Of a stretch of 64,000 nucleotides of DNA, positions 2,909 through 5,279 are shown piece after piece. Both the position numbers and the translations under genes were made by a program. The first letter of the stretch is position 1. Each line of letters opens with the position of its first letter. Where the stretch lies: NCBI GenBank assembly GCA_022819905.1, contig JAJEGJ010000104.1, positions 1 to 64,000 on the forward strand, given 5' to 3'. A model generated the notes under the pieces. It ran no database searches, was not told where the DNA came from, and was given only the letters and a program-made list of their open reading frames with translations. The DNA comes from Alphaproteobacteria bacterium (GTDB lineage Bacteria; Pseudomonadota; Alphaproteobacteria; TMED109).

Positions 2909-2946
2909 TTGCGGGAATCGCGGTCGATCCCCACATGAAGGTGAAG

Positions 2947-3019
2947 GTCCCCGTAGCTCAACTGGATAGAGCGCCTGAATCGCATCGGGAGGTTCCGGGT
3001 TCAAGTCCCGGCGGGGACC
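2947..3019 (+). tRNA. tRNA-like gene 1 with six-base anticodon loop
   Basis: Folds as a full cloverleaf: acceptor GTCCCCG/CGGGGAC, T8 A9, D stem GCTC/GAGC, D loop with GG, anticodon stem CCTGA (2974-2978) with TCGGG (2985-2989), five-base variable loop, T stem CCGGG/CCCGG and T loop TTCAAGT. The anticodon loop is ATCGCA (2979-2984), only six bases instead of seven, so the anticodon is ambiguous (CGC or TCG). No CCA is encoded. The acceptor helix continues outward by GAAG (2943-2946) with CTTC (3019-3022), giving 11 pairs. Bases 2950-2974 are identical to the chromosomal tRNA-Arg(CCG), so an arginine-tRNA origin is likely. It may be a true tRNA with altered decoding or a tRNA mimic. Confidence 0.75.
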
Positions 3020-3050
3020 TTCGACTCCACCGTACAACCTTCGGAAAGCA

Positions 3051-3139: not shown

Positions 3140-4114
3140 ATGACATTTACCGGCCCCGGCAAGTCAGATCGACAAGGAATCACCCTCACTCAGCTGTTCA
3201 AGATGTTCCCCGACGACGAGACCGCCAGGAGGTGGTTCGAGGAGCGGCTCTGGCCGAGCGGCCCCCACTGCCCGCGATGCGGCTCCAAGGACGTCGTGGA
3301 GATCAAGCACCCCACCATGACCCACCGCTGCCGGGACTGCCGGAAGGCGGGCAGCAAGGCCCTGTTCAGCGTGAAGGTCGGCAGCGTCATGGAGGGCTCG
3401 AAGCTGGGCTTCCAGACGTGGGCCGTCGCGATCTACCTGTTCACGACCTCGCTCAAGGGCGTGTCCTCGATGAAGCTGCACCGCGACCTCGGCATCACGC
3501 AGAGGGCCGCGTGGCACCTCGCCCACCGCCTGCGCCGGGCGTTCGAGGAGGGCGACATGGCCCGCTTCACCGGGCCGGTCGAGGTCGACGAGACCTACGT
3601 GGGCGGGCGGAAGCGCCGGAACGCCCCGAGCACGCAGAGAGGCTCCGTCGGTAAGGCCATCGTCGCCGGTGCCAAGGACAGGGCGACCGGCAGGGTCAAC
3701 GCACGCGTGATCGACAACGTGCGCAAGGAGACGCTCCAGGGGTTCGTGGGTGACCGCGTCGAGGTCGGGTCACTGGTCTACACCGACGACCTCCCCTCGT
3801 ACCGGGGGATGCCGTGGCACCACCACGAGGCCGTCAAGCACTCGGTCGGGGAGTACGTCCGCGATCAGGCCCACACGAACGGGATCGAGTCGTTCTGGTC
3901 AGTCCTGAAGCGCGCCTACGGCGGGACGTTCCACAAGATGTCGCACAAGCACCTGGACCGCTACGTGCAGGAGTTCTCCGGCAGGCACAACATCCGCGAG
4001 CTGAACACCGCGGACCAGATGAGCCAGCTGGCAGCGAGGATGCGCGGCAAGCGCCTCAAGTACGAGGACCTGACGGCGGACAACGGGCTGAAGTCCGGGG
4101 CTCGGAGTGCTTGA
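3140..4114 (+). CDS. IS1595-family (ISXO2-like) transposase
   Basis: A 324-residue DDE-type transposase. The N-terminal zinc ribbon has the two pairs CPRC and CRDC that are typical of this family. The catalytic core shows the first acid in VEVDETYVGGRKRR, the second in VYTDDLPSYRG, and the C-terminal NGIESFWSVLKRAYGG block with Asn and Glu where IS1595 proteins carry their third active-site residue. The length is normal and there is no frameshift, so the protein should be functional. It acts on the 46-bp ends of the surrounding element. GAGAGGAA lies about 13-20 bases before the ATG, a rather long spacing. Confidence 0.93.
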   Translation: MTFTGPGKSDRQGITLTQLFKMFPDDETARRWFEERLWPSGPHCPRCGSKDVVEIKHPTMTHRCRDCRKAGSKALFSVKVGSVMEGSKLGFQTWAVAIYLFTTSLKGVSSMKLHRDLGITQRAAWHLAHRLRRAFEEGDMARFTGPVEVDETYVGGRKRRNAPSTQRGSVGKAIVAGAKDRATGRVNARVIDNVRKETLQGFVGDRVEVGSLVYTDDLPSYRGMPWHHHEAVKHSVGEYVRDQAHTNGIESFWSVLKRAYGGTFHKMSHKHLDRYVQEFSGRHNIRELNTADQMSQLAARMRGKRLKYEDLTADNGLKSGARSA

Positions 4115-4158
4115 GGTCGGGATGCAAGTGACCTAAGATGACCGCGCAACGAAAGAGA

Positions 4159-4229
4159 ACCGCCGCGCCGGACTCAGGAAAATTCCTGAGCGCTCAGGGA
4201 CACGTGGCCTGAGTACCGACGCGGCGGCT
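4159..4229 (+). ncRNA. branched RNA or hairpin structure in the transposon
   Basis: An outer stem pairs 4160-4170 with 4216-4227 (CCGCCGCG with CGCGGCGG, one mismatch further in). Inside lie two hairpins: CTCAGGAA/TTCCTGAG (4173-4190) and CTCAGG/CCTGAG (4193-4213). The two inner arms share the same sequence, so alternative pairings across the junction are possible. It sits between the transposase stop and tRNA-like gene 2. It could be a terminator, a processing signal for the tRNA-like RNA, or a small RNA; there is no U tract for a simple intrinsic terminator. Confidence 0.5.
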
Positions 4230-4244
4230 TCTCGTCGGCACTCC

Positions 4245-4317
4245 CTCTCCGTAGCTCAGTTGAACAGAGCGTCCGGATCGCACCGGGAGGTCGCAGGTTT
4301 GAATCCTGTCGGAGAGT
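4245..4317 (+). tRNA. tRNA-like gene 2 with six-base anticodon loop
   Basis: Cloverleaf with acceptor CTCTCCG/CGGAGAG, D stem GCTC/GAGC, anticodon stem TCCGG (4272-4276) with CCGGG (4283-4287), variable loop AGGTC, T stem GCAGG/CCTGT and T loop TTTGAAT. The anticodon loop is again ATCGCA (4277-4282), identical to tRNA-like gene 1 although the stems differ. The D loop has GA where gene 1 has GG, and the T loop has T at the position pairing with it, so the 19-56 tertiary pair changes from G-C to A-T. The 15-48 pair changes from A-T to G-C. This covariation suggests the L-shaped fold is selected. A 9-bp inverted repeat (4232-4240 / 4317-4325) encloses the gene. No CCA is encoded. Confidence 0.7.
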
Positions 4318-4336: not shown

Positions 4337-4612
4337 CTATGAAGCCTTGCGCGCTGCGTACATCGCGCGTGACGCCTGCAGCGAGAACAGGGCGCCGACG
4401 CTGCCGCCGAGCAGGGCGGCATACTTCCCGGCAACGAGGCACTCGGCCGTGGACAGATCGGGGCAGACGTGGCCGTCTACGACCGCCATGACGATCAGCG
4501 CGCCCACGCCCGCGCCTAGCACCGCCGACAGCAGGATCCCGGCCACGGCCCTCGCCGCCTCGTTGACGACCAGCTGATCCCGCCCGGAGGGCTGGTTCTC
4601 TCCCCCGGCCAT
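4337..4612 (-). CDS. small membrane protein, transposon cargo
   Basis: A 91-residue protein with two predicted membrane segments (about residues 22-45 and 60-80) separated by a short loop with two Cys (HVCPDLSTAEC). No family is recognised. Its ATG overlaps the stop of the 50-residue gene upstream (TGATG), so the two are translationally coupled. The pair resembles small holin-like or plasmid membrane proteins in size and topology, but no function can be claimed. Confidence 0.65.
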   Translation of the reverse strand: MAGGENQPSGRDQLVVNEAARAVAGILLSAVLGAGVGALIVMAVVDGHVCPDLSTAECLVAGKYAALLGGSVGALFSLQASRAMYAARKAS

Positions 4613-4764
4613 CAGCTCTCCCCCTTCTTGATGAAGCAGGAGATGAGGACCCCGATCGGCCCCAGCAGGAAGCCGACGACGGCGGCGAGCTGGGTGCCCG
4701 CGATCTTGTAGGACAGGACTGCGCAGATCCCGTTGACGATCAGGGCGACGAGGAAGAATTCCAT
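4612..4764 (-). CDS. 50-residue membrane protein, transposon cargo
   Basis: A 50-residue hydrophobic protein starting MEFFLVALIVNGIC and ending CFIKKGES, with two short hydrophobic stretches split by SYKIAGTQ. GGAGTGAG lies upstream of the ATG. Its stop overlaps the start of the 91-residue membrane protein by one base. The ribosome site, coupling and consistent hydrophobicity support it as a real gene; its role is unknown. Confidence 0.6.
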   Translation of the reverse strand: MEFFLVALIVNGICAVLSYKIAGTQLAAVVGFLLGPIGVLISCFIKKGES

Positions 4765-5075
4765 TGGGGCTCACTCCGACGGGCGACGGTGCCGACCTCG
4801 GCAGAGCGCCGGGCCGTTGCTACGTCAACCAGTGAAGTTGAGTCCCCGCCTGTTCGCCCGCCAGCTCAAGGAGCTACCCGGAGCCGGACGCTAGGAGCTG
4901 TTCTATTCAGCGGGCGGCCCGACCGAGCGGGCCTGATTGACGTAGCGAGGTCAGGCTACCAGATCGTGAGGCGGGCGGACAGGAACCGACGGGCGTCAGG
5001 GGATCGAGGCCATGTACTGATGGCCAAAAGCATTGTAAGGTGGGTTCAGAAGCCGGGAGGGGACGCGAACTCGCC
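4765..5075. other. gene-free stretch inside the transposon
   Basis: About 310 bases between divergently oriented small genes. It must hold the promoters for the minus-strand membrane pair and for the 52-residue ORF. I see no clear boxes and no further gene. Confidence 0.45.
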
Positions 5076-5234
5076 ATGAACGACAAGCCAGTGAGACGCG
5101 AAGTCCGCGTGAAGCCTGACGACTACGAGCCGACCGAGGCGGAGATGAACGAGCCGATCCGAATCGACGCGACCCCGGATCAACTGGCTCGGATGCTTGG
5201 ACCCGCTCGGGTGGTCAAGGACCCCGACGCCTGA
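5076..5234 (+). CDS. 52-residue charged protein, transposon cargo
   Basis: A small, acidic and charged soluble protein beginning MNDKPVRREVRVKPDDYEP. The core EPIRIDATPDQLARML resembles short orphan proteins found widely in GC-rich bacteria, some of them antitoxin-like, but I cannot name the family with certainty. GGGAGGGG lies about 13 bases upstream. The last codons and the TGA stop fall inside the right terminal repeat, so the gene is bound to the element end. Confidence 0.6.
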   Translation: MNDKPVRREVRVKPDDYEPTEAEMNEPIRIDATPDQLARMLGPARVVKDPDA

Positions 5235-5271
5235 TCAGACCGAGTTCCGGTTACTCTGATACATAATCGCC
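5226..5271 (-). repeat. right terminal inverted repeat
   Basis: Reverse complement of 2863-2908 with two mismatches. It overlaps the 3' end of the 52-residue ORF and is followed at once by the second copy of the target octamer. Confidence 0.93.
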
Positions 5272-5279
5272 GGAAAATA
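5272..5279. repeat. 8-bp target site duplication, right copy
   Basis: GGAAAATA, identical to 2855-2862 on the other side of the transposon. Confidence 0.92.

Follow-up and report, generated by a model that had tools for sequence, protein, structure and literature searches.

The small-protein genes at the right end of an IS1595-family transposon in the window (the whole stretch of 64,000 nucleotides analysed here) are real cargo, and their wider significance lies in a mobile leader-RNA module. We propose, as a reading that we consider fairly likely, that this module is a cis-acting leader and antisense riboregulator, borne by IS1595 and carried as cargo together with its gene. The finding ties the obscure Rfam entry sRNA-Xcc1 both to a larger RNA class heading surface-protein genes in bacteria with sponge-pointing labels and to transposons carrying RNA-gene modules. 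It also yields a testable idea for sRNA-Xcc1-type RNAs, namely control of the gene directly behind via a variable antisense segment. Should regulation be confirmed, these RNAs would form a control layer of host-facing proteins shared across phyla and provide a source of orthogonal RNA switches. The preliminary description of this DNA had rightly seen the small genes as cargo of an element and had overlooked the structured leader RNA that links them to other elements.

The IS1595 element and its small-protein cargo

The window contains a complete IS1595-family transposon. Its terminal inverted repeats (TIRs), found by inverted-repeat search at 2863-2908 (left) and 5226-5271 (right), are 46 bp long and 96% complementary, and are flanked by the 8-bp target site duplication GGAAAATA at 2855-2862 and 5272-5279 (8/8 bases alike), in agreement with the earlier description of an intact element around the small genes. 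The 324-residue transposase (3140-4114, forward strand) matches Pfam DDE_Tnp_IS1595 (2.1e-36) and Zn_ribbon_IS1595 (4.6e-10) as well as NCBIfam transpos_IS1595 (1.6e-55). The element thus combines an ISXO2-like DDE transposase carrying a zinc ribbon with TIRs and an 8-bp duplication, the features of the IS1595 family. Between the transposase and the right end lie a tRNA-like gene and three small ORFs, here called m91, m50 and c52.

The two tRNA-like genes, at 2946-3020 (gene 1) and 4245-4317 (gene 2) on the forward strand, were called by ARAGORN and by the Rfam tRNA model (50.6 and 47.0 bits, respectively). In both, the anticodon loop is down to 6 nt by eye (ATCGCA), and ARAGORN gave the anticodon of gene 1 as incomplete. 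Further IS1595 elements contain tRNA genes, namely at loci L077 (1322-1397), L084 (4946-5020) and L110 (two, at 5072-5144 and 3374-3472), with Ile-GAT and Ala-CGC among their identities, which makes tRNA genes a recurrent cargo of these transposons. A strong nested hairpin (4155-4233, z -4.54), devoid of a U run, separates the transposase from tRNA-like gene 2.

The ORFs after tRNA-like gene 2 are as previously described. On the reverse strand, m50 (4612-4764) encodes a small membrane protein of 50 residues and m91 (4337-4612) a hydrophobic protein of 91 residues, whose start overlaps the m50 stop as TGATG; on the forward strand, c52 (5076-5234) encodes a charged protein of 52 residues and does end within the terminal repeat, with its stop at 5234. 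All three stayed below the curated cut-offs of Pfam and NCBIfam, and PHROGs offered no convincing match (best 0.0068). The earlier verdict that these proteins are unrecognised therefore stands for m50 and m91, and needs amending for c52, which belongs to no Pfam family and was found in no viral contig, yet is conserved in the lineage. Its relatives (profile A6) occur in 6 of 17 TIR-bounded elements of the genus (the window, L079, L087, L215, L216 and L217), a count that excludes weaker matches at E 0.01 to 1. In all six, c52 lies downstream of the transposase on the same strand, and its frame ends at most 80 nt from the element end in the window, L079, L087 and L216.

The cargo set is not conserved as a whole: m91 had no relative in the six other genomes of the genus (0/6), in viral contigs or in plasmids, and the single relative of m50 in the genus is a decayed copy, frame-shifted by eye, in another species (L088), where it sits behind a degenerate copy of the leader RNA described below, with no transposase in the stretch examined. 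Related elements lacking m50 and m91 thus exist, which for these two genes is the refuting outcome that the preliminary description had named; c52 is retained in the six elements above. Besides the five other elements, c52 homologues also occur beside other copies of the leader RNA, from which c52 diverges with a gap of about 110-140 nt in the window, L160, L132, L162 and, weakly, L080.

Judged by sequence comparison, the small ORFs are more than chance ORFs, because c52 has homologues in other elements, because a conserved leader RNA ends 20 nt ahead of the m50/m91 pair, promoter and start codon being in register, and because m50 has its decayed relative behind the degenerate leader in L088; for the m91 ORF taken alone, comparison with the six congeners gave no support. 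Any role of m50, m91 and c52 is one that we infer.

A structured RNA heads the m50/m91 pair

When the element DNA was searched against its own genome, the matches comprised diverged transposases and two hits to the stretch between m50 and c52. These two, and a third copy nearby, display near-perfect inverted arms, whose sequence differs from copy to copy, around a conserved core. A covariance model built from four copies (R1) delimits a structured leader RNA of about 165 nt, running from 4952 to 4784 on the reverse strand between m50 and c52 and directly upstream of the m50/m91 pair; it scores 142.3 bits (E 4.8e-30), the window copy being one of the four sequences from which R1 was built. The variable outer stem has its 5' arm at 4933-4946 and its 3', antisense-type arm at 4819-4832, both identified as an inverted repeat on the reverse strand. 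A further model, R2, spans 165 positions.

Covariation was assessed in an alignment of 72 sequences (A5). As A5 was fitted to the structure, the figures for pairing lean towards it: 95.6% of 2874 cells are paired, versus 35.8-48.7% with the partners slid, and another alignment (A4) behaves similarly. Double changes occur in 27 of 41 pairs, and the covariation score is 0.506 versus 0.146 in shuffles. All 14 pairs of the outer stem show double changes and are 95-98% paired. A check made without this alignment, on the 66 of 92 copies that could be anchored (62 distinct), gave -31.6 kcal/mol for cognate arms versus -18.3 kcal/mol for non-cognate ones, with the cognate arm best in 41 of 62; among 65 of the 72 alignment rows, cognate arms were strictly best in 41 or 45, depending on which of two measures was used. 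At one core pair, U-G is the commonest type (54/72), which speaks for RNA rather than a DNA hairpin. Taken together, the comparisons indicate that the leader is structured, and probably as RNA.

The core loops (GAAUANAACAGCC, GGGUAGCUCC and GGCGAAUAGGCGGG) are very conserved. A conserved helix, P1 (GUCGGGYCG/CGGCCCGGC), has 97.1% of cells paired in the new class, UG/UA/CG and GC/AU exchanges, and one pair with changes on both sides. P1 crosses the outer stem and excludes both the H1 hairpin and the 3' hairpin, an incompatibility that suggests the idea of two states.

Thermodynamic stability was dropped as evidence in favour of these comparative data, the window leader having a z of -1.64 on its own strand and -0.69 on the other. 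Assignment to a known Rfam family was likewise rejected, as the stretches scanned gave no match at threshold; Rfam riboswitch models gave none there either, at E up to 5, 1 or 10.

A distant relative of sRNA-Xcc1

Below the threshold, matches to sRNA-Xcc1 (RF02221) were recovered at 23.6-37.2 bits against a gathering score of 53, in the outliers L208 and L209 and in the named loci L163, L161, L092 and L110. The best scores, 37.2 (L209) and 33.0 (L163), fall short of membership. RF02221 was not matched by the window RNA at E up to 5 or by any of 19 loci of the genus at E up to 10. Alignment covers the core loops together with the closing helix: P1 and the AAUACAA...GAAUA core are present, and a length near 87 nt without 5' extension is not, R2 having 165 positions. 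Conversely, R2 found mere fragments in 30 canonical sRNA-Xcc1 loci (8.6 and 6.2 bits). The copies at L208 and L209, from two genomes of the window's class, are intermediate between sRNA-Xcc1 and the new class. From sequence and predicted fold, the new RNA is a distant sRNA-Xcc1 relative with a new 5' extension, outside RF02221 by score and architecture and sharing its core fold.

Canonical sRNA-Xcc1 exceeded the cut-off in 39 of 398 genomes. Of 30 loci, 29 have a reading frame beginning no more than 200 nt downstream of the RNA, often within 50, and ten of the encoded proteins were scanned: three have Bro-N (one below cut-off), one KilA-N, one P22_AR_N and two Rha, and three are without family. 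These canonical copies (L231-L260) precede phage regulator genes and contain a two-part segment complementary to the start of the gene that follows. In PMC12444791, sRNA-Xcc1 is placed upstream of symE in a widespread Xanthomonas integron cassette.

Promoter-like motifs and downstream genes

The new RNA looks like a 5' leader, with promoter-like motifs before it and an ATG shortly after. Over 89 copies, TAnnnT peaks at positions -9 to -5 relative to the start of the model, with 5, 17, 6, 9 and 3 occurrences (40 in all) against about 0.95 expected per position; in the window, the peak corresponds to the -10-like hexamer TAGCCT (4953-4958, reverse strand), 7 nt before the 5' arm, the first base of which is the predicted transcription start. 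TTGAC is found at -32 to -30 in 6, 12 and 5 of 87 copies, peaking at -31. Both boxes are present in 25 of 87 copies, compared with a mean of 1.8 and a maximum of 5 in shuffles. This constant place between promoter and start codon would also suit a passive 5' leader that stabilises the mRNA or aids translation of horizontally moved genes with no switching, an explanation that we judge unlikely since it leaves the strict core and the two competing helices unexplained.

On the sense side, an ATG-started frame of at least 45 residues begins within 80 nt in 73 of 89 copies, at a median of 16 nt, and 52 of these 73 frames have a hydrophobic, export-type N-terminus, versus 104 of 464 background frames. 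The divergent side has a frame in 40 of 89 copies, five of which start with a hydrophobic N-terminus. The regular presence of a sense frame speaks against m50 and m91 not being genes and the RNA being a stand-alone sRNA, as do the overlap of m50 and m91 as a coupled pair and the decayed m50 relative at the same place in L088; the lack of any relative found for m91 would fit such an sRNA, which nevertheless seems very improbable.

The families behind the RNA, scanned in 69 proteins out of 86 ORFs under a selection favouring hydrophobic starts, are largely cell-surface ones: Slam-type surface lipoprotein (8/69, best 2.4e-07, one shown at 26.2 bits vs a cut-off of 80), outer-membrane barrels, TbpB, GT25, O-antigen ligase, CsgG and DM9; others are nucleases and GIY-YIG proteins. 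One locus, L074 (4245-10991), contains three tandem leader-gene units with nearly identical outer-stem arms before lipoprotein-like genes, as if co-regulated.

A DNA-level element, such as an attC-like hairpin recombination site or an IS1595 target site, would account for palindromic arms and for tandem units of the L074 kind, and would suit the tie to a family described from integrons (PMC12444791). Orientation and distance to start codon and promoter are fixed, however, the U-G preference at the core pair points to RNA, and the IS1595 ends and duplications lie elsewhere, all of which makes this explanation very improbable.

Occurrence of the RNA

R1 found eight copies in the window's own genome (E below 1e-4) and one to eight in each of the seven genomes of the genus searched, its own included; 54 other relatives had none. 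Transposase matches in the genus numbered 24, in six of the seven genomes. Examination of 23 of these places (G001:C7 was left out) revealed a TIR pair at 17, of which 15 are flanked by duplications with 7 or 8 of the 8 bases alike. Ten of the 17 TIR-bounded elements contain the RNA (the window, L073, L076, L077, L078, L079, L082, L084, L085 and L087, the last with a weak score of 26.2 bits); in L086, a weak RNA lies outside the element. The element at L084 (3707-6756) has a different TIR start (CGTGATTATAAAG) and a transposase only 34% identical, yet has both a leader RNA and a tRNA gene aboard.

An exact 19-letter core pattern matched 100 stretches among 84,980 species genomes, and among the matches listed the models found the RNA in 69 of 80 loci. 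In the named loci, the RNA lies inside an element bounded by TIRs and duplication at L132, L147, L110 and L142 (L153 being L073 again). For most copies there, the up to 8 kb examined include no IS1595 transposase, and the RNA as a part of the transposon only was rejected on this ground. A phage origin of the new class was rejected as well, with no exact pattern match in viral contigs, where m91 and c52 had no match either.

Bin labels jk18 or p16 are borne by 35 of the 69 RNA-bearing listed loci; jk18 labels are those of Ircinia MAGs in PMC9531527, and p16 presumably points to sponges too. A further 16 of 69 bear the labels RHO, IRC, COS or CAR, which would stand for the sponge species named in PMC8163846. 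One title contains 'lac_sponge', which leaves 17 of the 69 without a sponge assignment. Among the 11 of 80 listed loci without RNA, 10 carry names that give no hint of sponges, and the remaining one, L101, comes from bin95, which also has RNA-bearing loci. The titles cover Alpha- and Gammaproteobacteria, Gemmatimonadetes, Bryobacterales and Binatota; such MAGs may be misbinned, but each of 23 genomes contains 1-12 copies, most of them several, before unrelated genes. Within its own class the RNA was found in 19 of 385 genomes (R1), and in the phylum sample in 3 of 398 (R2). A literature search among open-licence papers uncovered neither an account of such an RNA nor one of IS1595 in bacteria from sponges.

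Antisense complementarity and proposed mechanism

Phage C4-type RNAs control translation of the gene behind them by antisense pairing. Run-based tests were used for the antisense question, as minimum free energy duplexes were too noisy (cognate best in 2/18). Over the 23 of 30 canonical sRNA-Xcc1 loci used, the variable hairpin shows complementarity to the 75 nt that follow, with 12.57 versus 8.52 paired bases (0/5000 permutations), and the cognate target is strictly best in 10 of 23; the reversed-target control is slightly raised too (9.78 versus 8.66, 4/5000). The signal is weaker in the new class, where the 3' arm scores 5.09 versus 4.40 against the -30 to +12 region (0/5000, n=57) and has runs of seven or more complementary bases in 9 of 57 copies versus 2.0 expected. 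Complementarity to the ribosome-binding site is weak and confined to a minority of copies, the window copy not being among the listed best. For the 5' arm, complementarity to the start region was not above chance (250/2000 and 178/2000).

A ligand- or protein-sensing leader, akin to a riboswitch, is a possible if rather doubtful alternative: the core would bind a metabolite or protein of the sponge habitat and switch unrelated surface genes, with the variable stem as a scaffold. The strictly conserved core loops, the multiple copies before unrelated genes and the two competing helices all agree with it. A pure scaffold, however, has no need of copy-specific arms, and the related sRNA-Xcc1 set is antisense-complementary to the start region.

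We propose antisense control of the downstream gene as the best mechanism, by analogy with C4-type RNAs. Transcription would begin where the 5' arm begins, driven by a sigma-70-type promoter. The predicted fold of the RNA is an sRNA-Xcc1-related conserved core inside a copy-specific outer stem. Shortly after the RNA (about 16 nt) a reading frame starts, here m50 coupled to m91, and the RNA would control its translation by antisense pairing: the variable 3' arm may bind the 5' arm or, in some copies, the bases immediately before the ribosome-binding site. P1 would compete with the H1 and 3' hairpins, giving two states. The copy-specific arms could keep the modules of one genome from cross-regulating, should any act in trans. 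IS1595 elements would move the modules between bacteria with sponge-pointing labels, where they would drive mostly surface and exported proteins.

More tentatively, the RNA may be a large, previously undescribed class typical of sponge-dwelling bacteria from several phyla, a movable switch of surface and secreted proteins with its own antisense code in each outer stem, and IS1595 might spread switch and gene between unrelated symbionts; we regard this wider picture as conceivable, with the balance somewhat against it.

Comparison with known systems

Passenger genes occur in IS1595-family transposons. The window element resembles such transposons in its transposase domains, TIRs and 8-bp duplications, and differs from them in that a structured RNA heads the cargo and in the tRNA or tRNA-like genes that some of the elements seen here contain. 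A likeness to the C4 antisense RNA of phages P1 and P7 would lie in a leader RNA whose variable segments may pair with the start of the following gene; the stretches scanned show no sequence match to it in Rfam.

Another close system is sRNA-Xcc1. Both RNAs have the core GUCGGG..GCUGAAUACAACA..GG.GAAUA..CGGCCCGGC with the same closing helix, both are placed just upstream of a gene, and both are mobile. The new class differs in its length (about 165 versus 87 nt), in its extra 5' arm and H1 hairpin, and in a variable arm whose main partner is the transcript's 5' end; and whereas phage regulators lie downstream of sRNA-Xcc1, the new class precedes mostly exported and surface proteins.
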